A stretch of DNA of 64,000 nucleotides from Thermomicrobiales bacterium (GTDB lineage Bacteria > Chloroflexota > Chloroflexia > Thermomicrobiales > UBA6265): positions 62,001-126,000 of the forward strand of contig JAHBVL010000005.1 of assembly GCA_019637585.1 (NCBI GenBank). Reading direction: 5' to 3'. This document shows positions 13,048 through 29,556 of the stretch, one piece after another. How positions within the stretch are numbered: position 1 is the stretch's first letter; each line of letters begins with the position of its first letter. The translations under genes were made by a program, and so were the position numbers. Below the pieces are notes generated by a model, which was given only the letters and a program-made list of their open reading frames with translations, searched no databases and was not told where the DNA came from.

Positions 13048-13120
13048 TCTGGGTAGTCTCTGCCTGGTGATTACGCGTTTTGCACAGCGTCAGAGAGGAA
13101 GATTAGGGAGTTCTGCGTAT

Positions 13121-13149
13121 TTACCCATCTCACAAGCGTGTCATACAAT
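13121..13149 (+). promoter_or_regulatory. Possible promoter for the PAP2 gene
   Basis: TTACCC at 13121-13126 and TACAAT at 13144-13149 are separated by 17 bases, in the 254-base gap before the PAP2 gene. The -10 element is good and the -35 poor. Downstream, GGAG and an ATG at 13174 open a 13-codon frame ending at 13215, which could be a leader peptide or chance. Confidence 0.35.
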
Positions 13150-13301
13150 CAGTTTCGTAGGAGTGAGGCACTAATGGTCGTGCCCACGGCAACCGATGCC
13201 CTCGGTCATCCGTGAAGACGCTCCGGAACAGTGTGTGCGGTCGTTCCCAGTCTGGACGTTAATTGCGTAGTCCAGCGGGAGACCAGGATAAGGGGTTTAC
13301 C

Positions 13302-14153
13302 ATGGAATTCATCGAAGTCCGCCGGTTGCGGGCGGCACAACATCCACGCCGGTTGCTGCGCATGAGCGCGCACCACCGATCGATTGCAGCGGGGTTCGGT
13401 CCGCTGTTGGTTCTTTACGCCCTCTATACCCTCCTTCGCTGGACATTTGTCGAACGCGCGTCGATCGTGGGGGACCACAACGCCCATACGGTCATGCACC
13501 TCGAACAGCGGTTGGGCATCAACTGGGAATTGTGGATTCAGTCGCATGCGTTGAGCTGGTCGCAATCCACGTGGCTGGTCAACCATTACTACGTCTATGC
13601 CTTCTTTCCCGTGTTGATTGCAGCGGCGGCGCTTGCAGTGCTCCGGTCACCGGGAGCCTTCTACGAGTGGCGCACGATCTTCGTCGTGTCGCTGGCTTTT
13701 GCGCTGGTCGGTTTTGCCCTCTATCCGCTCACGCCGCCCAGACTGCTGGACGACTCGTACGGTTTTGTCGATTCGCTCATGATGACCGGGCCCCGCTACT
13801 ACGGCGACGAGTCAGGATCCTCGCTCTTCAATCTCTATGGCTCGATCCCAAGTCTGGTCAATGAATACGCGGCCATGCCGAGTATGCATGTCGGTTGGTC
13901 GGCGGTTGCCGCGGCGCTGCTCATTGCCGCGTTCCCGAGAAGCAGAGCCGTGAAGATCGTGGCCATCAGCCACGTTGCCATGATGCAGCTCTCGGTCGTG
14001 GCAACCGGCAATCATTACCTGATCGACGGCATCGTCGGCCTGATAGTCGTGGCTCTTTCCTGGGTGGTCGTGATACACGGACTCCCCCGCGCCAATGCGT
14101 GGTGGGCTGCCAGCGGTCAGACCAGGAACGATCTGCCCATCTGCCAGGAGTAA
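13302..14153 (+). CDS. PAP2 superfamily membrane protein (Aur1/Ipt1-like)
   Basis: A 283-residue polytopic membrane protein with about six spans. The phosphatase motifs are AAMPSMHVGWS (about residues 193-203), carrying the PSMH catalytic histidine, and VATGNHYLIDGIVGL (about 229-243), carrying the second histidine and aspartate. The layout fits the Aur1/inositolphosphotransferase-like PAP2 branch, which transfers or removes phosphate from lipid head groups. The substrate here is unknown. The ATG at 13302 follows AAGGGGTTTACC. A 50-codon membrane peptide gene starts seven bases after its stop. Confidence 0.87.
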   Translation: MEFIEVRRLRAAQHPRRLLRMSAHHRSIAAGFGPLLVLYALYTLLRWTFVERASIVGDHNAHTVMHLEQRLGINWELWIQSHALSWSQSTWLVNHYYVYAFFPVLIAAAALAVLRSPGAFYEWRTIFVVSLAFALVGFALYPLTPPRLLDDSYGFVDSLMMTGPRYYGDESGSSLFNLYGSIPSLVNEYAAMPSMHVGWSAVAAALLIAAFPRSRAVKIVAISHVAMMQLSVVATGNHYLIDGIVGLIVVALSWVVVIHGLPRANAWWAASGQTRNDLPICQE

Positions 14154-16190: not shown

Positions 16191-16309
16191 CGACTTGCCC
16201 TTCTCACGCCAAATACCGGCTCATCACATTCCGGACGGCATACTACGCCTATTCAGGCAGTTTCTCATACTTGGCATGTGTCCTCAACCGGTCAACCAAT
16301 TGGAGACGA

Positions 16310-16506
16310 CAGCAGGCAGTGGGCAGCAGGCAGCAGGCAGCAGGCAGGGTGATGGTCCGAGGTCCGAGGTCCGCAATCCGTAGTCCGAAGTCCGAAGTCC
16401 GAAGTCCGATAGGAGCGTGCGCGACCTTGGATGACGATCGGAAAGCGCCTCCCGTTTCCGCGAAACCACCCTGCCGCCCGCTGCCCGCCGCCTGCCGCCC
16501 GCTCCG
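16310..16506. repeat. Three heptamer arrays between ilvD and rex
   Basis: The 440-base divergent gap (16191-16630) holds three period-7 arrays. The first, 16310-16348, is of GGCAGCA type. The second, 16353-16410, is of AGTCCGA type. The third, 16470-16506, is of CTGCCGC/CCCGCTG type and reads as the approximate reverse complement of the first. The first and third could pair over about 35 bases. The promoters of ilvD and rex must lie in this interval, but I could not place them with confidence. Confidence 0.8.
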
Positions 16507-16630
16507 TCCTTTGACGCGACAGAGCCCGTTCACGGATACTCACGGCATTGGCTTCGCCGTGCGACGAGTCGCCTCTCCTTTGCACGTCGCCCATGCCTGA
16601 TTGAGAACAAGGCTTCAGGTTCCGAACTCG

Positions 16631-17332: not shown

Positions 17333-17453
17333 GTAGTGCATAGTTCGTAGTTCGTAGTTCATAGTTGATAGTTGATAGTGCATAGTTACGAGTTTTCTTT
17401 GCATGGTTGCCTCTATGCACTATGCACTATGCACTACATACTATGCACTTACT
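17333..17453. repeat. Facing heptamer arrays (CATAGTT type) between convergent genes
   Basis: The left array at 17333-17388 has units CATAGTT, CGTAGTT, GATAGTT and GATAGTG. The right array at 17413-17453 carries the reverse complement (ATGCACT, ATACTAT). They are separated by about 24 bases and can pair to a hairpin of roughly 40 bases per arm. The pair fills the gap between rex (+) and the SDR gene (-), where it could act as a shared transcription end. Confidence 0.85.
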
Positions 17454-18237
17454 GCGCTAGGTACCCCCCATCAACAGGCAACACCGCGCCAGTCACGAAC
17501 GATGCCGCGTCCGACGCCAGGAAGAGGATCGCTTCGGCGACTTCTGAGGGCTCGCCGATGCGGCCCATGGGGTGCATCTTCTCGATCGCTTCCAGATACT
17601 CCTGACCGCCCGGCTCGTCGGGAAGCTGTTTGACCCGCTCGGTGCGGATCGTGCCGGGGGCGACGGCGTTGACGCGAATGTTCTTCGCTGCCCATTCGAT
17701 AGCCAGGTGCTTGGTCAGACCGGTGGCCACGAACTTGGCGGGACCATACGCCGCCTGCCGCGATTGCCCCGCCATACCCGAGATCGACGACAAGCAGACG
17801 ATCGAACCGCCGTTTTCATTCTCCAGCATGGCTTCGATCGCGAATTTGCAGGTGAGAAACATGCCGCGACCGTCGATCGCCATCACCTGATCCCACGCGT
17901 CGACCGAGGTATTCAGCACGTCGTCGAGCGGGATGATGCCGGCATTCGCCACCAGCACATCGAGGCGGCCATACGCCTCAGTCGCAGCGGCGATCATCCG
18001 GCGGGCATCATCCTCGACTGAGACATCGCCCACGACGGCGACGACCGCCGCACCTGTCGCCGTCAACTTCCCGGCCAGCGCTTCGATCGGCCCGGCCTGG
18101 ATATCGGTGACCACAAGCTGGGCACCCTCCCTGGCGAAGAGCTCCGCGGTTGCCCGGCCGATACCGAATGCGGCGCCAGTGACGACGCAGACCTTACCCA
18201 TGAGACTTCCAGGCGGACCTGAGCGCTCTACTGTCAT
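17449..18237 (-). CDS. SDR family oxidoreductase
   Basis: A 262-residue classical short-chain dehydrogenase: TGAAFGIGRA at residues about 18-27, NAGI at about 97, the catalytic serine in CLSSISG and YGPAK as the catalytic Tyr-x3-Lys. The aspartate in VVTDIQ favours NAD. AAGGAG lies eight bases before the ATG at 18237; a TTG six codons upstream is less likely. The gene begins only 29 bases after the large cyanophycin-synthetase-like gene on the same strand and is likely cotranscribed, which would link an NAD-dependent oxidation or reduction to that enzyme. The substrate is unknown. Confidence 0.9.
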   Translation of the reverse strand: MTVERSGPPGSLMGKVCVVTGAAFGIGRATAELFAREGAQLVVTDIQAGPIEALAGKLTATGAAVVAVVGDVSVEDDARRMIAAATEAYGRLDVLVANAGIIPLDDVLNTSVDAWDQVMAIDGRGMFLTCKFAIEAMLENENGGSIVCLSSISGMAGQSRQAAYGPAKFVATGLTKHLAIEWAAKNIRVNAVAPGTIRTERVKQLPDEPGGQEYLEAIEKMHPMGRIGEPSEVAEAILFLASDAASFVTGAVLPVDGGYLAQ

Positions 18238-18266: not shown

Positions 18267-21200
18267 CTAGACCCGTTGCCGGTTCTGGAGACGATCGACT
18301 GCTTCGACAACAGTCGCTTCTATCCGGCTGCCGATATCGGCAATCACAAGCTCGACGCCCTCGGCAAGCAGTGGCTCAATCGCCTCGACGCCGGGGCTGC
18401 CGGCCACAACCGTTCCCCCTGCTTCGACCATCCTCGCAACAACCTGCGATGGAGTCTGAATCCAGGTATCACTCTCTTCTTCGGCGCCCGCGATGACGAC
18501 GATATCGACCTCATTGAACTCGAGTCCGGGAAACGCAAGATCGTCGGTTCGCACCGGGGTTACGACGATCTCGACGCTGGGGTTGTACATCGCCATATGG
18601 TGTGGGCTCGGCCCAAAGGAACCCTGTGTGCGAGCGTGCATGGAGCCGATGTGAGCGCCATCCGCAACAACACGCCCAACCACCAATCCATGATTGGTCA
18701 GTGCTCGTCCGACCGTCTCCGCGATTTCATCAAGATCACCACTGCCTGCGATCGCGACGACCGGCACTCGCACTGGCTGGCCAGGCGGGAAGAGCATCTC
18801 CAGGATGGCCGGAACCGGATCCCTGGCTGGACCAGCCGTGGGTTGATAGTGGGGGTAGAGTCCCGGAGCGGTATTGATCTCGACGATGCCGCCCCCGGTT
18901 TCCCAAACCGATTTCGAGATATCCGGCGCCAGGAAATCGAGCCCACCGAGATCGATACCCATCGACCGGCACGCCTGCACGGCAATCGCCGCATTGTCGG
19001 GATGGATCTGATCGGTCACGTCGACCCGGGTACCGCCATTCGCTCCAGATGGAATCAGTTTGACCTTGACCACACGGTCCTTTTCCGGAACGTCGGTCAG
19101 CGTCAGGCCCTGCTTCGCCAGGGCAACGGCCGTCTGCTCGTTGATCTGAATTGCGGCCAGGAAATTACCATCGACCGCCTGCCGTTCCGGGCGGGCATTC
19201 TCGACGGCGACCAGCTCCTCCACCGTCGAAACGCCGTCCCCTGTGACGGAGGCAATCTCCCGTTCGAGCACCGCCCAGACCTTGAAATCGATCACGAGGA
19301 TTCTGTAGGAGATCCCCTCCAGGAATTTCTCGACGACGATCTGCTTGTTCGTGGCAAACGACGCGGTGCGTTCGAAAGCGGATCGCAATTCCGCTTCGTC
19401 CCGGATATCGGTCATGACTCCTTTGGAGTGATTCTCCGAAAGAGGTTTCAGTACGACGGGATACCCGATCCTGGCTGCACCGCTGACTGCTTGCTCGACT
19501 GTCGTAACGAGCACGTTGGCTGGGACTGGAAGACCTCGGTCCCGCAGCAACTGGCTGGCCAAATTCTTGTTTCTGGCGAAGCGTGTGCCCAGAATCGTCG
19601 TATCCGACGTCCACAATCGCCAAAACTGCTTCAGGTATTTGCCGTTGCCGAAATCCATCAAGTGCGATGCCTTGATCGGCTGGCGAAGGGGTATCCCGCG
19701 ACGGCGCGCTTCCCGGATAAAACGAGGCGTATCGCCGATCTCTTCAGTCGTCGCTGGATTGATGATCGCTCGTTCAAATCTGTGGACGAAGGAGGAGGCA
19801 TGCGAGATACCCTGGAGGAGATCGTCCAGGGCCACAATGGCGATCTCCGCCGTTTCCCGGCCAGCGGTCGGATCGACATACTCGCAAATGACGTCGAACC
19901 CGCCGCCCTCTCGCCTCCTCGCCTTGGAAAACGAGACATCCCATCCACCAAGCCTCTGCAATCCGAGCATCAGCAGAGCAAGCGCTTCTCCCACATCGTT
20001 CAGCTTGGTGGGCTCTCCAGCCGGGTCGATGACGCCGTGCAACTCGGCGAGCCGTTCCGCGACATCGTCGAAGTTCGACTGGTCACCGCTCTCGAAACCC
20101 TTCACATCGAGGACAACATGCACGACGGGTTTTTCGGAGAGACGGCTGGGGCCACGATAGATGGACGTTGATTCCGCCCGAACGAGTGAGGCCCGACCAT
20201 ACTGAGGACGCTCGCTCTCGTTGGCCATCGGCAGACGACCGTTTTTGACCAGATGGTATGCACCGGCGAGGGCGGAGATATTGTGCTGGACGAAATCAAC
20301 GCGAACGTACGACTCTTGTTCGTCCTGAGCCCAGGCGCCAACCACCCTCGACGGTCTGGGAAAGTTGCGCGCGATCTCCGACGTGTATTGGACTCTCATG
20401 CCAAATTGGACTGTACGGAGCGCCGCTTCGGACACCAGCTCGACCATGCCCTCATCGCCGCGGTACACCGCCAGGCCCCAGACGGCGTTCATGGCCTCCG
20501 CTTTTGTTGCCGTCGACGTGTAATTCACCGACTTGCCCCGGCGAGACCCGCCGATCTGGCGCCAGTTCGGATGACTGCCGGGATACTGGCTGGCCATCAT
20601 GGCTTCGGCCTGCATATAGGCAACTTTGGCAAAGACCGGCGAGGGAAACTGTGGATACAGTTCACACAACGCCATCGCCAGCCAGTGATCGTGCCGGGGC
20701 ACGACACCCTGATCGACGATGTCCCCATCCTTGACCCGGGTCAGGAACTCTCCGGCTCGAACCGCCTGCTCCAGAAACGGCCCATCAGGAAAGTGCTGCG
20801 CCAGCCGCGTGATGGCCAGCAGGGCTTCTCCGGGGTAATAGTCTGATTCCGGAGTGGGAAGCATTTCCTCAGAGCTGACGAGATACGAATTGAAGTACTG
20901 TCCCGGAGAATCCTCCATCTCGAGCGCGTCGAGAAAGACGGTGAGATCGGCGATCAAGTCGTCGTACTGGCTGTCCTTCAGCACCCTGCGCCGTTCCAGG
21001 AGCGCAACAAGCGCCAGCGCCTGTCCCCCGAGCTTCATCCTGCCCTTGTAGCAGAAGGCCTTTCCACCAAAAGGGGTGGGCACCGATGCCTCGAACAGCC
21101 ACCTGCATGCGGACTCAGCGGCTTCGAGCCAGCGCGAGTTTCTATTCAGGTCATAGCACTGGAAAAGAGAGTAGATCGTTCCGGCATGCCGGACTTCGTT

Positions 21201-21422
21201 GTATTGATTCCGGTTGTAGGTATTGGTTTCAGGATAATAAAGGTAAGCGAATCGACCATCCGACCCGATCGAACCAGCGATCCAGTCCGCGCCCATTGCC
21301 ATGCGCTTCCGGGCGAGGTTGGCCAGTCTGTCACGCTTCAGGGGACGTTTGCCATCGAGGAGAGAGCTCGCTTCTTCCGGCAAATGCATCGGCGCGGGTC
21401 GTACCGTTGAGTCCGTCGACAT
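18267..21422 (-). CDS. Cyanophycin-synthetase-like ATP-grasp protein fused to an N-terminal alpha/alpha-toroid-like domain
   Basis: A 1051-residue protein. Residues about 20-390 are helical-repeat sequence with YYPETNTYNRNQYNEVRHAG and YPGEALLAITRLAQ, resembling alpha/alpha toroids such as glucuronyl-epimerase or glycosidase-like proteins. Residues about 410-550 match the N domain of cyanophycin synthetase CphA (IYRGPSRLSEKPVVHVVLDV; GLQRLGGWDVSFSKARR). Residues about 585-880 are a complete ATP-grasp domain (GNGKYLKQFWRLWTSDTTIL; GYPVVLKPLSENHSKGV; SVTGDGVSTVEEL; GGGIVEINTAPGLYPHY). In CphA a Mur-ligase domain follows. Here only about 160 residues remain, and the GTNGKTTT P-loop is replaced by VAIAGSGDLDEIAETVG. 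So one ligase centre looks intact and the other dead. AGGAG precedes the ATG at 21422. No cyanophycinase gene is nearby. CphA activity is not implied; the acceptor is unknown. Confidence 0.88.
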   Translation of the reverse strand: MSTDSTVRPAPMHLPEEASSLLDGKRPLKRDRLANLARKRMAMGADWIAGSIGSDGRFAYLYYPETNTYNRNQYNEVRHAGTIYSLFQCYDLNRNSRWLEAAESACRWLFEASVPTPFGGKAFCYKGRMKLGGQALALVALLERRRVLKDSQYDDLIADLTVFLDALEMEDSPGQYFNSYLVSSEEMLPTPESDYYPGEALLAITRLAQHFPDGPFLEQAVRAGEFLTRVKDGDIVDQGVVPRHDHWLAMALCELYPQFPSPVFAKVAYMQAEAMMASQYPGSHPNWRQIGGSRRGKSVNYTSTATKAEAMNAVWGLAVYRGDEGMVELVSEAALRTVQFGMRVQYTSEIARNFPRPSRVVGAWAQDEQESYVRVDFVQHNISALAGAYHLVKNGRLPMANESERPQYGRASLVRAESTSIYRGPSRLSEKPVVHVVLDVKGFESGDQSNFDDVAERLAELHGVIDPAGEPTKLNDVGEALALLMLGLQRLGGWDVSFSKARRREGGGFDVICEYVDPTAGRETAEIAIVALDDLLQGISHASSFVHRFERAIINPATTEEIGDTPRFIREARRRGIPLRQPIKASHLMDFGNGKYLKQFWRLWTSDTTILGTRFARNKNLASQLLRDRGLPVPANVLVTTVEQAVSGAARIGYPVVLKPLSENHSKGVMTDIRDEAELRSAFERTASFATNKQIVVEKFLEGISYRILVIDFKVWAVLEREIASVTGDGVSTVEELVAVENARPERQAVDGNFLAAIQINEQTAVALAKQGLTLTDVPEKDRVVKVKLIPSGANGGTRVDVTDQIHPDNAAIAVQACRSMGIDLGGLDFLAPDISKSVWETGGGIVEINTAPGLYPHYQPTAGPARDPVPAILEMLFPPGQPVRVPVVAIAGSGDLDEIAETVGRALTNHGLVVGRVVADGAHIGSMHARTQGSFGPSPHHMAMYNPSVEIVVTPVRTDDLAFPGLEFNEVDIVVIAGAEEESDTWIQTPSQVVARMVEAGGTVVAGSPGVEAIEPLLAEGVELVIADIGSRIEATVVEAVDRLQNRQRV

Positions 21423-21769
21423 TGAGATCTCCTGCGTCACGCCCCCGAAGCGCGCCAACTGACGTTCCGGATTCCGGATTTCTGACTTCCCTGATTCACT
21501 TTCGAGAAGAATACGAAGATTTGCGGGCCCACGCTATCGATCGACAACGCGAAGGAGGGGCTCCTCAACGGTGAGATTTACTTCGAATGCGAACGTACGC
21601 CGATGGACACTCCATTGACCTGGAAAATTGAGAGAAATGTCGAATCTTGATTTTCGGTGTAAAGTCTCATTGCATAGTTGCGCAACGGCACTGTTTGCCG
21701 TAGGATTACTCCAGCAGTCCACGATGATTGTTGGGCTTGGGTTGGATGTTGGTGCTTTGGGGAGGATCC
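21423..21769. promoter_or_regulatory. Divergent intergenic region of the ATP-grasp and polyaspartate genes
   Basis: This 347-base gap separates two divergent starts and must hold both promoters. It is more AT-rich toward the plus-strand gene, with TTGACC at 21617-21622 and TTGATT near 21648 as possible -35 elements, but no convincing -10 element at standard spacing. A small GGAGGGGCTCC hairpin occurs near 21555. I see no coding sequence of convincing length. Confidence 0.4.
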
Positions 21770-22279
21770 ATGAACGAGAAAGAGTTTGAACTGACTGAAG
21801 GGCTTGAGGTGGATACAGACCGCCGAACCCTGCTGAAGTGGCTCCTCGGCGGCACCACGGCCGTTGTCGCTGGAGTCACACTGAGTGACAGCATCCTCGC
21901 TCAGGGCGATGATGATGACGACGACGATGATGACGATCCAAATCCGCCAGTCGGCGATGATGACGACGACGACGATACCGATCCGCCTGCAGATGATGAC
22001 GACGATGATGACGACGACGATACCGACCCACCTGCAGATGATGACGACGATGACGATGATGATGACGACGACGACGGCGGCCATCCTGGCAAGAAGCCGT
22101 GGAAGCATCACAAGCATGGCAAGACCTCTGGCGGCGCTGCCGTAGAGTCGCTGCCGAACACCGGCACCGGTTCGACCTCCAGCTCGAATGGCATGCTCGG
22201 CGTCGCCACTGTTGGCGCAGCTGCGGCCTACTTCGCTGGCAAGTACCTGCGCCAGACCGCGTCGGAGTCCGCCGAGTAA
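21770..22279 (+). CDS. Polyaspartate-rich exported protein with LPNTG cell-wall-anchor tail
   Basis: A 169-residue protein of striking composition. A Tat-like signal (DRRTLLKWLLGGTTAVVAG, about residues 17-35) ends near ILAQG. Then come four runs of 10, 7, 10 and 13 consecutive aspartates separated by PNPPVG, TDPPA and TDPPA. A basic patch GGHPGKKPWKHHKHGK follows. The end is a sortase-type sorting signal: SLPNTG, a glycine/serine linker, a hydrophobic segment MLGVATVGAAAAYFAG and the basic tail KYLRQ. GGAGG at 21761-21765 fixes the start. Expected location is outside the membrane, wall-linked or membrane-held if no sortase acts. Calcium binding or a surface polyanion role is plausible. It is divergent from the CphA-like gene, which suggests it could be that enzyme's substrate. 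Confidence 0.88.
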   Translation: MNEKEFELTEGLEVDTDRRTLLKWLLGGTTAVVAGVTLSDSILAQGDDDDDDDDDDPNPPVGDDDDDDDTDPPADDDDDDDDDDTDPPADDDDDDDDDDDDDGGHPGKKPWKHHKHGKTSGGAAVESLPNTGTGSTSSSNGMLGVATVGAAAAYFAGKYLRQTASESAE

Positions 22280-22315
22280 ATCTCGCGCTCCTTCACAATC
22301 GATAGCCTGTCAGGC

Positions 22316-22340
22316 GGCCGCTCGAATGAGCGGTCGCTTG
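22316..22340 (+). terminator. Rho-independent-like terminator after the polyaspartate gene
   Basis: GCGGCCGCTC and GAGCGGTCGC pair over ten bases with one G-T wobble around the loop GAAT. TTGCATTTTGGG follows. It lies about 37 bases after the stop codon, so the next gene is probably transcribed separately. Confidence 0.7.
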
Positions 22341-22359
22341 CATTTTGGGCAGTCAGAGC

Positions 22360-22385
22360 GTAGTTCGGGCACCTGTGGCCCGATG
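22360..22385. repeat. 26-base dispersed element, copy 2
   Basis: Identical over 26 bases to 14336-14361. It lies between the terminator of the polyaspartate gene and the long GGCAGTC array, separated from the array by two bases. Confidence 0.8.
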
Positions 22386-22387
22386 TA

Positions 22388-22570
22388 GGCAGTTGGCAGT
22401 CGGCAGTCGGCAGTTGGCAGTTGGCAGTTGGCAGTTGGCAGTTGGCAGTCGGCAGTCGGCAGTCGGCAGTCGGCAGTCGGCAGTCGGCAGTCGGCAGTCG
22501 GCAGTCGGCAGTCGGCAGTCGGCAGTCGGCAGTCGGCAGTCGGCAGTCGGCAGTCGGCAGTCGGCAGTCG
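22388..22570. repeat. Long heptamer tandem array, GGCAGTC/GGCAGTT, about 26 units
   Basis: An uninterrupted period-7 array of 183 bases: mixed GGCAGTT and GGCAGTC units at the left, then pure GGCAGTC. It is the longest and most homogeneous array in the window, so probably the youngest or still changing in length. It has no spacers and is not a CRISPR. Facing it at about 22611-22650 is a shorter run of 8-base units (TTCCGCCT, ATTCGCCT) like the array at 56832-57060. The rest of the gap up to 22763 shows nothing else clear. Confidence 0.95.
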
Positions 22571-22763
22571 AACAGAGCGTAATCTCTGCCTCTCGGCATT
22601 GCTGACCTTCCTCTCCGCCTTTCCGCCTATTCGCCTTTCCGCCTCGTCCCCACTGAACGAACAGTTGCGCCATCCCCCATCCTGTGCTTAGCTAGCCCTC
22701 ATCACCAGCGTCCCCGCACGCTGGCGACCATACCGAACCGCACGATCCACTGAGGAAAGGGGG

Positions 22764-25453: not shown

Positions 25454-27118
25454 CTACTCCCACTCGATCGTCGCCGGGGGCTTGGAGGAGATGTCGTAGA
25501 CGACCCGATTGATGCCGCGAACTTCGTTGACGATGCGGTTGCTGATGAGAGCGAGGATGTCGTACGGGATGCGGGCCCAGTCGGCCGTCATGGCGTCCTG
25601 GCTGGTCACCGCCCGGATGGCGCAGACCTTGGCGTAGGTTCGGTAGTCGCCCATCACGCCGGTTGAGTGGACGGGCAGAAGAACGGCGAAGAACTGCCAG
25701 ATTTCCTGCGCCAGTCCGGCGTTCTCGATTTCCTCCCGGACGATGGCGTCCGCCCGTCGCAAAAGGTCCAGATCTTCATCGGTGACCGAGCCGAGCAATC
25801 GAACGGCCAGACCGGGTCCCGGGAATGGCTGCCGCCAGACGACTTCGTCCGGCAGACCCAGCGCGGTACCCACCGCTCGCACTTCGTCCTTGAACAGAAA
25901 GCGCAGCGGCTCCAGCAGCTCGAATTGCAGATCCTCTGGCAACCCTCCCACGTTGTGATGCGTTTTGATCTTGGCCGCGGCTTTGGTATCGGCAGTGGTG
26001 CTTTCGATGACATCCGGGTACAGCGTGCCCTGCGCCAAAATCTCAAAGGGACCGTGACTGGCCGCTTCTCGCTCGAACACGCGCACGAACTCGTCGCCGA
26101 TGATCTTGCGCTTTTCCTCAGGGTCGGTGACGCCGGCCAGCCGGCCGAGAAACCCATCGCCCGCATCGGCATAGACGAGCTTCATACCGAAGTTGCGGGC
26201 GAAGACCTCCCGCACCAGCTCCGGCTCACCCTGCCGAAGCAGACCATTGTTGACAAAGACCGGCGTCAGTTGGTCCCCGATGGCCCGGTGAATGAGCGCC
26301 GCCGCAACCGACGAATCGACGCCCCCACTCAAACCCAGCAGCACTCGCTTGCTGCCCACTTTCTCCCGAATATCGGCAATCGACGCATCGACGAACGACT
26401 CGGGGGTCCAGTTCTGGTCGCATCCGCACATCCGCGTCAGGAAGTTCTCGATGACGCGCGCACCGAGTGGGGTATGAACGACCTCGGGGTGAAACTGGAT
26501 ACCGGCGACATTTCCCCTGGCGATCGCCGCCACCGGCGCGTTGGCGCTGCGGGCCACCAGATCGAATCCTTCGGGAAGCGCATCAACATGGTCGCCGTGA
26601 CTCATCCAGACATCGAGACGACCGGGCAGGTCGGCAAACAACGGGGACTCGCCGACGATCTCCAGCTCGGCCGGACCATACTCGCGCCGGTCAGCCGGCG
26701 CCACCCGGCCGCCCAGCCCATTGGCGATCAGCTGCATGCCGTAGCAGATGCCGAGCACCGGCAGACCCGAATCCCAAATCCAATCTGGAAGCTGCGGCGC
26801 CCCCGGTTCGTAGACACTGGCCGGACCGCCTGAAAGGATCAGCCCTTTCGGTTTCAGGGTCTGAATGCGCTCATAGGGGACATCGTGCGGCACCAGCTCG
26901 CTATAGACATTGGCCTCGCGCACCCGGCGGGTGATGAGCTGGCTGTATTGCGAGCCGAAGTCGAGCACGATCACCGAATCGATCGGCTCCGACGCCTCGT
27001 CGATCAACAGGTGTGCCGGGTCGTCGAGCGCATGATCGGCGACAGTGACCTGCCCCTCGCTCGGGTCGATGGAATCGACGGACTTTGGTTCGAGATTCGG
27101 AACATTGCGATCAGGCAT
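25454..27118 (-). CDS. guaA: GMP synthase (glutamine-hydrolysing)
   Basis: A 554-residue GuaA that converts XMP to GMP using glutamine and ATP. The N-terminal class I glutamine amidotransferase has the nucleophile in LGICYGMQL (about residue 123) and the HPEV histidine-glutamate pair. The ATP-pyrophosphatase domain has the PP-loop [16 protein letters not shown] (about 265-280). The C-terminal dimerisation domain ends in the conserved KPPATIEWE. About 45 extra residues precede the amidotransferase domain. The upstream interval is a heptamer array with no purine riboswitch that I can see. Confidence 0.97.
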
Positions 27119-27165
27119 GGTACCCCCGGAAAGGCAGCGAACGGCACTGCGGCAATTCTAAGGGG

Positions 27166-27267
27166 GTGACTGGGAACTGGTGGCTGGTGGCTGGCAACTG
27201 GTAACTGGTAACTGGTAACTGGTAACTGGTAACTGGCAACTGGCAACTGGCAACTGGTGACTGACTG
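27166..27267. repeat. Heptamer tandem array, TAACTGG/CAACTGG type, about 14 units
   Basis: About 102 bases of period-7 units (TGGCTGG, CAACTGG, five or more TAACTGG, then CAACTGG). It fills most of the 152-base gap between the stop of the glycosyltransferase gene (27271) and the start of guaA (27118), both on the minus strand. There is no facing complementary array here. Confidence 0.92.
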
Positions 27268-27270
27268 CTA

Positions 27271-29556
27271 CTACTCGCCAGTTGGAATGTCGAGGGATTC
27301 CGTAATCTCGAGTGTGTCGAGGACGACAGTAGGGGCCAGGCGCTCTCCATACCGGAAGCTGAATCCCTGCACTGGAGCGCCGGTCTGCAGATTGAGTACC
27401 TGGAGCTCGATTGAGTAGTCGCCCAGGGGAGTGTCGGCCGGTACCGGCAGCGCAAGACTCGCCTGGACCTGGCCATGCCGTCCTGGATCGGTCAACGACA
27501 GCGGCGCAGTGACGTCAGAACGGATGGCGCCGCTGACGTCGGTCAGCTGGAGGCGAACCTCATAGACCGCCTCGGTCCCGTTCAACGCGCTTTCGTCGAG
27601 TTGGTCGAAGAAAAGCGTCACTGGAATCGTCGAGCCCGGTAGCGCCGCGGTGGCATCGGTCCAGGCGACCAGCCTGCCGATGCCCGGCCAGAGCATCATG
27701 CCCGATCGGCCTTCCTCCAGAAACGCGGGAATCGCGTCGCCGCGGAGATCGTAGAGCCGGGCATATTCGAGACCGTTCAGCCAGACGGTAAGCGCCGGCT
27801 CTTTGTTCGCCAGCTCGTCCTGCCATGGTTGCCACACCGCGCCTCGACTCTGGGAGGTGACGTAGAGGAGGTAAAAATCGCTGCGTGTCCAACGGTAGAG
27901 ACCACGTGGATCGTCGACAAACGAGGCATTCCGGATGACGCCGTCCGTGAAATAGGAGAGCGCTGAAGGCCAGGCATCGGTCGCGACCACCACGGAAGCG
28001 TCATCGGGCAGCTCGCTCAGAAATGCGCCAACCTGATCGAGCCCCTCACCCCAACCAACCATCATCGAACCGGGCGCCGCGTCTGCTCCACCGAGCAGGG
28101 GGTTGTAGTAGCTCAGATAGTAGGGAGCTGTGGCACGCACGCCGCTGACCTGCATCACGAACGTCAATGTGACCAGTGAGGCCGCGGGAAGCCAGCCCGG
28201 CATGCCGCCTCGCCTGCCGATGCGCTGCGCTGCGGTGATGATCCCCCATGCCGCCAGCAGCGCCGCCAGCGGATAGACCGGCAGGAGATAGCGATCGAAC
28301 TTCTTGGCGGCAAAGGACATCAACAGCCCGTAGCTGGCCGCTGCCATCAGCAACGATATGGCGATCTGGCGCTGAACACGGGGCACGTCGAACCGTCGCG
28401 ACCAGATCACCAGCGCCACAGCCAGCACCACGCCAACGATCACCGGTGGCGTGGCGCGCCAAAGGAAGGTCGTGGGATAGAACTGGAATCCGGGGTCTCC
28501 GCTGTACAACTGCCCGGCGAACACGACCGTGTTCTCATGCCCCTCGATCGCAGCGGTTTCGGCGAAGTCGAGCATCTGGCGCATCGTGCCGATGGGATCG
28601 ACCCAGAGTGCCGGCCAGAGGAGAACGCACGTCACAAATGCCGACGTTCCCCAGATCATCAACGGGCGAATGCAACTCCTGACCGATGCCATCCAGCCGC
28701 CGCCAGCTATACGCCAATCGCGGGCATCGATCAGCAGCATCACCGCAAACCAGACAGCGAGGATACCTATCTGCGATCTCGTCAATACCGCAAGCCCGGC
28801 CGCCACCCCGGAAACCAATAGATCCCGCTTTCGATACCCCCGACAGAGATAAACCGATCCGGCCAGCACCGAGAGCTGCATGAACCCGGCGGCAGTGGCA
28901 TCGATATGGAGCAGCCGGGAGAGGGCCAGCGGGAAAGGGTCGAGCGCCATGATCAGAAAACCGAAGAGCGCGACCCCAAACGGCAGAAGCTTCAATGCGT
29001 AGAGAAATGAAAGCAGAAAGACGATTGTCAGCGCCAGGACGATCATCGTCCGCCCGGCGACCATGATGTCCAGCGGTTCGTAACCGAGATCGGTCAGGAT
29101 CAGAGCGACGCGGTTATTACGCTGGGAGATCTGCCCGTCGATGCGGTCGATATAATCATTCGCTTTCCACCAGTATCCGGCCGCGCCCAGCCACATCACG
29201 GTGACGCCGGGGTGGGCGAATTGATAGGTCGACTTGAGATCGCCACTGGAAAGCGCTTCGTAGAAGTTCGCCGAGCGAGCCAGCCAGATCGGTTCGTCCG
29301 GGGTCACCATCCGGTCGAGCTCGACGATGCGCGGCAGGAGAAATGTTGCCGCGAGGAGAAGCAGAGCGGCAACTCTCCAGGCCACCGGTTTCGACCAGCC
29401 GGCGTCCTGCGCTTCCCCTCGTTTTCTCTCCCGGCGTGGCGCCAGAACCACGCCCTCCCGCCGGGGGATCCGGGAGACCGGGAGCGGGACAGGTCCCGGC
29501 GATCGGCTCGCCGGGACATCCCCAGTCAACAACGTTGGGCTTCCTCGGCCTGTCAC
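27271..29556 (-). CDS. Membrane glycosyltransferase, PMT/ArnT (GT39/GT83)-like
   Basis: A 761-residue multi-span protein. The first luminal loop carries the family's catalytic acidic residues in MVTPDEPIWLARSANFYEAL (about 82-101) and the following AHPGVTVMWLGAAGYWW. About ten membrane segments extend to about residue 450. The last 300 residues form a soluble extracytoplasmic domain with beta-rich sequence. Such enzymes move a sugar from a polyprenyl phosphate donor to protein or lipid at the outer face. The N-terminal 50 residues are basic and proline-rich and may be a misjudged start (GTG used). It follows the sugar dehydrogenase gene by 45 bases. Confidence 0.82.
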   Translation of the reverse strand: MTGRGSPTLLTGDVPASRSPGPVPLPVSRIPRREGVVLAPRRERKRGEAQDAGWSKPVAWRVAALLLLAATFLLPRIVELDRMVTPDEPIWLARSANFYEALSSGDLKSTYQFAHPGVTVMWLGAAGYWWKANDYIDRIDGQISQRNNRVALILTDLGYEPLDIMVAGRTMIVLALTIVFLLSFLYALKLLPFGVALFGFLIMALDPFPLALSRLLHIDATAAGFMQLSVLAGSVYLCRGYRKRDLLVSGVAAGLAVLTRSQIGILAVWFAVMLLIDARDWRIAGGGWMASVRSCIRPLMIWGTSAFVTCVLLWPALWVDPIGTMRQMLDFAETAAIEGHENTVVFAGQLYSGDPGFQFYPTTFLWRATPPVIVGVVLAVALVIWSRRFDVPRVQRQIAISLLMAAASYGLLMSFAAKKFDRYLLPVYPLAALLAAWGIITAAQRIGRRGGMPGWLPAASLVTLTFVMQVSGVRATAPYYLSYYNPLLGGADAAPGSMMVGWGEGLDQVGAFLSELPDDASVVVATDAWPSALSYFTDGVIRNASFVDDPRGLYRWTRSDFYLLYVTSQSRGAVWQPWQDELANKEPALTVWLNGLEYARLYDLRGDAIPAFLEEGRSGMMLWPGIGRLVAWTDATAALPGSTIPVTLFFDQLDESALNGTEAVYEVRLQLTDVSGAIRSDVTAPLSLTDPGRHGQVQASLALPVPADTPLGDYSIELQVLNLQTGAPVQGFSFRYGERLAPTVVLDTLEITESLDIPTGE

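Follow-up and report, generated by a model that had tools for sequence, protein, structure and literature searches.

A toroid domain fused to a cyanophycin synthetase-like ligase without the Mur ATP site in a Thermomicrobiales bacterium

A gene in the window, a stretch of 64,000 nucleotides (C29:62001-126000) from the draft genome of a Thermomicrobiales bacterium (3.94 Mb, 33 contigs), encodes a protein in which an alpha/alpha toroid precedes a cyanophycin synthetase (CphA)-like ligase that has lost the ATP site of its Mur domain (18267..21422, minus strand; 1051 aa, open reading frame and translation). We are somewhat inclined to regard this fusion protein as a peptide (amide) ligase with a single ATP-grasp active site, derived from the CphA1 of Chloroflexota, with altered substrates and with a toroid that processes the acceptor or the product. 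In the proposed mechanism, the ATP-grasp (G) domain would turn a carboxylate of the acceptor into an acyl-phosphate and then join an amine to it, whereas the Mur half would be a structural core only, as in CphA2, so that the protein would add no side-chain amino acid. The substrates would be other than aspartate and cyanophycin, and the toroid would most likely bind the acceptor or product and process it chemically by hydrolysis, trimming or isomerisation. The activity, the amide product and the toroid chemistry are what we infer from sequences and structure models.

An earlier sequence-only reading had proposed the domain anatomy of the protein, and NCBIfam matches, structure models and fold search agree with both the domains and their limits. 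In particular, residues 417-991 match the cyanophycin synthetase models NF010623 (E=3e-122) and TIGR02068 (E=1e-107), with scores that miss the full-length cut-offs by more than half (409 vs 877 bits and 361 vs 850 bits, respectively) because the Mur part is short. Alignment to the sequences of solved CphA1 structures spans the N domain (residues ~417-570, also found by fold search; 19713..20174) and the ATP-grasp domain (residues ~575-880; 18783..19700), and extends into the Mur core (residues 885-1051; 18270..18770), all on the minus strand. The N domain lacks the Cx19HxxEH motif responsible for zinc binding and primer cleavage, the respective columns reading -EAL versus CHEH in CphA1. The ATP-grasp domain also matches the RimK Pfam model (34.1 bits, cut-off 21). 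In the M region of about 166 residues, TGTNGKTTT of CphA1 reads AGSGDLDE; the earlier claim of a shortened Mur domain with GSGDLDE (residues 893-899; 18726..18746, minus strand) in place of the P-loop GTNGKTTT is thus confirmed by the CphA alignment, and the Mur lid is missing as well.

Residues 1-410 and 411-1051 were modelled separately because in a combined alignment toroid rows ran over the ligase half. For the model of residues 411-1051 (pLDDT 88.4), the PDB fold search returned CphA1 first (TM 0.82), followed by the CphA2 structures 7ta5 and 8fxi (TM 0.70-0.75), the match covering the N and G domains and the M core. No intact second ligase was found by fold search in the C-terminal region, and the protein likely performs one ATP-dependent amide ligation.

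The G domain demonstrates a division between catalytic and specificity-determining positions. In TeCphA1, residues K220, K261, H267, R309, R323, and E450 are involved in ATP binding or acyl-phosphate stabilisation, and E215, N394, S396, and R458 have been found by mutagenesis or structure to read Asp or cyanophycin (PMC9427784). All the catalytic-site residues (K220, K261, H267, R309, R323, E450, and N452) are kept in the fusion protein, as K619, K659, H665, R707, R721, E848, and N850, and so is G456; the two ATP-binding lysines (K619, K659) and the Mg-binding E848 and N850 are present in the ATP-grasp fold, and the H267-type P-loop of the G domain is retained (KPLSENHSKGV). The specificity positions have changed, namely E215R (residue 614), N394S (792), S396A (794), and R458Y (856). 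Because the residues that read Asp and cyanophycin are replaced, the substrate is probably neither plain Asp nor cyanophycin, but CphA2 tolerates H267K, and such a reading of residues is therefore no firm guide to the substrate. The changes suggest that a reduced CphA ligase can be recruited for new substrates.

The closest described architecture is that of CphA2, which has a single active site and lacks the P-loop and the lid of its Mur domain (PMC9427784, PMC10206079) as well as the N-domain HxxEH site (PMC9262961). Since this loss has been published, the lost ATP site of the fusion protein is not new in kind; of the suggestion that its architecture is undescribed, the toroid fusion stands, being unmatched in our searches, and the lost second ATP site, a hallmark of CphA2, does not. 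CphA2 proteins (7ta5 from Gloeothece citriformis, 8fxh and 8fxi from Stanieria) share with the fusion protein the N and ATP-grasp domains, the truncated Mur core and the absence of all three motifs, and have a similar length (620-651 aa versus 641 aa for the ligase part), but no toroid. CphA1 proteins (7wac, 7lg5, 7lgm, 7lgn) share the folds of the N domain, the G domain and the M core, with TM values reaching 0.82, and the ATP-grasp catalytic residues including H267, and differ in having the Mur P-loop, the lid, the N-domain HxxEH site and unaltered Asp/cyanophycin-reading residues, and in lacking the toroid.

The common architecture and length raise the question of whether the fusion protein is simply a working CphA2, which would re-polymerise beta-Asp-Arg or related dipeptides produced by the organism's own cyanophycinase, with the toroid as an accessory. 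The genome does contain a cyanophycinase and a complete CphA1, the R458 position is filled by an aromatic residue as in most cyanobacterial CphA2 (usually F or Y), and grouping with CphA2 is left unrejected by the AU test. Nevertheless, we consider this explanation unlikely, as all 13 cyanobacterial CphA2 sequences retain N394 and S396, have D or E at position 215, and carry K or E instead of H267, whereas the fusion protein has S, A, R, and H, respectively, and its identity is 35-36% to Chloroflexota CphA1 versus approximately 23% to CphA2.

Besides a canonical CphA1 adjoining the cyanophycinase, the genome has six further CphA paralogs that are truncated and lack the P-loop. Four of them form a tandem array (C1:61-69 kb; L039:9891-18304), one lies at C1:37 kb (L038:6235-8178), and one, at C1:438 kb, is cut down to the ATP-grasp domain and the Mur remnant. 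In the tree of G domains, the fusion protein clusters with these six paralogs (support 90), and the group is placed beside Chloroflexota CphA1 and apart from cyanobacterial CphA2, in line with the sequence identities. This grouping suggests that the fusion protein is probably the outcome of a second, CphA2-like reduction, derived from the Chloroflexota CphA1, and that reduction of CphA to one ATP site extends beyond cyanobacteria. Joining to CphA2 gave AU test p values of 0.28 (the whole truncated clade) and 0.20 (the fusion protein alone), so an independent origin is favoured, not proven. The CphA2 sequences used for comparison come from other cyanobacteria, because none was found in the toroid-bearing ones.

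Several side observations concern the same loci. The tandem four and the nearby paralog at C1:37 kb have approximately 650-704 aa each and vary among themselves in the ATP-grasp specificity residues. CphA1 and cyanophycinase are adjoined by a 522-aa CphA relative (L041:11541-13109, minus strand) with an N-domain-like start, an intact Mur ligase and no ATP-grasp domain, a mirror image of the truncated paralogs. Truncated CphA genes lie near (up to ~2.3 kb) genes for Tat-exported Cys-rich proteins at three of the three sites in this genome (L038, L039, L042) and in two other genera (L206 of G002 and L209 of G012), which makes a functional pairing possible; the DGxRFDxLTRxxGxGASRRS-like start of these Cys-rich proteins has 33 matches in the 3.94-Mb genome. 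Finally, phage portal-like and small phage-like genes, recognized by eye within one truncated CphA cluster (L038:10237-11565 and 13118-13717), are a possible prophage remnant.

The state of the paralogs bears on whether the fusion protein is active at all. H267, R323 or the metal-binding acid is missing in some of them, and since several are without H267, part of the truncated clade may be inactive. Moreover, the expansion is lineage-specific, and truncated paralogs are rare in the other genomes of the family, where they are unambiguous in just G002 and G012, while G025 has a candidate that is cut off by its contig. These observations would fit a member of a decaying, expanded family that is catalytically dead or has a purely structural or regulatory role. 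For the fusion protein itself we find this improbable, given that it has all the listed ATP-grasp catalytic residues and an intact, long and evenly composed reading frame.

Residues 1-410 have no match among Pfam and NCBIfam models. The AlphaFold2 model of this part is all-helical (pLDDT 88.8, pTM 0.88), and its closest PDB folds are (alpha/alpha)6 barrel enzymes, with cellobiose 2-epimerase in the first place; the alpha/alpha toroid previously suspected within residues 1-400 is thereby borne out, at residues ~30-395 (20238..21335, minus strand). The overall fold is shared with cellobiose 2-epimerase of the AGE superfamily and other (alpha/alpha)6 barrels (3wkf, GH76, GH127), with TM values of 0.6-0.7 to AGE enzymes. 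However, identity to cellobiose 2-epimerase is only about 15%, and the invariant residues of the toroid were not seen in two AGE sequences. Membership in the AGE (N-acylglucosamine 2-epimerase) family was rejected, as hhalign against the two AGE sequences gave a probability of 5% and there was no Pfam match. Two relatives of the toroid exceed the Pfam gathering score for GH127.

A conserved-peptide scan of GTDB contigs revealed 396 relatives of the toroid, of which 80 loci were fetched. In an alignment of 84 sequences, residues G56, Y60, R78, G132, E199, W247, E309, R374, D376, Q379, and H380 are 99-100% conserved, and all eleven are retained in the fusion protein, so its toroid probably works as an enzyme and has preserved its pocket. 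The relatives are 23-35% identical to the toroid of the fusion protein, whose placement among them in the toroid tree has a support of 39 only. Typically the toroid is preceded by a signal peptide or by a domain that we take from its sequence to be AMMECR1-like, without a Pfam match, and most of the relatives are exported or carry the latter domain.

This widespread, unnamed family is recurrently linked to genes for CapA and YheC/D-type ATP-grasp proteins. In a Rickettsiales protein of 1326 aa (L109:5527-9507), AMMECR1-like, toroid, PGA_cap, and YheCD ATP-grasp domains form one chain, which is also a fusion of the toroid to an ATP-grasp ligase, but one of another ATP-grasp family and with an added CapA domain. 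Similarly, YheCD-type reading frames are located downstream of the toroid in three Rickettsiales or alphaproteobacterial loci (L098, L105, L108), CapA is located upstream of it in two others (L127, L134), and Synergistota have toroid-CapA (PGA_cap)-toroid clusters in which the second toroid is a paralog (L077:7317-11549, L110:1068-5232). These contexts suggest a role in the chemistry of peptides or capsules. The conserved polar residues and the CapA and ATP-grasp links are compatible with a toroid that would hold or trim the acceptor. Fused protein partners usually act on one common molecule, and for this reason the fusion protein offers a handle on the role of the whole toroid family.

The toroid-CphA fusion is new within everything searched, and its single occurrence is in a draft genome. 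The same fusion was found in no other genome among 32 of the family, 158 of the class and 400 sampled from the phylum, the protein itself being the only full-length match among the 32 family genomes; no CphA-type ligase is fused to a toroid in the 80 fetched loci, and GTDB contigs contained no close relative of the whole protein. Within the collection of papers searched, nothing was relevant to the fusion or to the combination of a toroid with ATP-grasp. Two candidate frames were discarded: a 1102-aa frame in G017 is an ordinary CphA1, and a long frame in L051 encodes a toroid but no ligase.

The gene for an SDR-family oxidoreductase (17449..18237, minus strand) starts 29 bp downstream of the fusion gene with its own AAGGAG ribosome-binding site, so that the two probably form one operon. 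On the other side, 347 bp away, begins a divergent gene (21770..22279, plus strand). Its product of 169 aa combines a Tat-like signal with several tracts of poly-aspartate and carries LPNTG as well as a hydrophobic tail. The genome (3.94 Mb) has stretches of at least eight Asp codons at only three places; most of these stretches lie within this gene, and the other two sites are near the starts of members of the Tat Cys-rich family.

As the backbone of cyanophycin is poly-Asp, on which CphA acts, this neighbour is a lead to the substrate: the fusion protein could join amino acids to the Asp carboxylates or the C terminus of the Tat/LPNTG protein before its export, with the toroid binding or editing that protein. 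Proteins exported by Tat are synthesised in the cytoplasm, where the ligase, having no evident signal peptide, could meet them. We nevertheless think such a role very unlikely, because the G domain of CphA uses the C-terminal backbone carboxylate rather than side chains, neither of the two remaining poly-Asp sites has a CphA paralog beside it, wall-anchored proteins often contain acidic tracts, and the neighbour was noticed after the fact. We would give a shade less credence still to the full scenario, in which a second, CphA2-like invention of a single-site ligase has expanded to seven members in one bacterium and one of them, having gained a processing toroid, modifies a ribosomally made poly-Asp protein before Tat export; if true, this would be an offshoot of cyanophycin synthesis devoted to protein modification.

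The least probable explanation is a mis-joined assembly or an accidental read-through between neighbouring genes. Although the fusion is known from one genome with no close relative to confirm it, the 1051 codons form a single frame with an ATG start and no internal stop or frame break, GC3 is uniform (0.64-0.73 per 150 codons) and so gives no compositional sign of a mis-join, the linker between toroid and ligase has about 20 residues with conserved residues intact on either side, and the contig is long. An alternative in-frame TTG start at 21458 would extend the protein to 1063 aa. In the same window, short intergenic tandem repeats, LPTADCR- or LPVTSYQ-like when translated, are located at approximately 16250-16530, 22280-22600, and 27111-27470.
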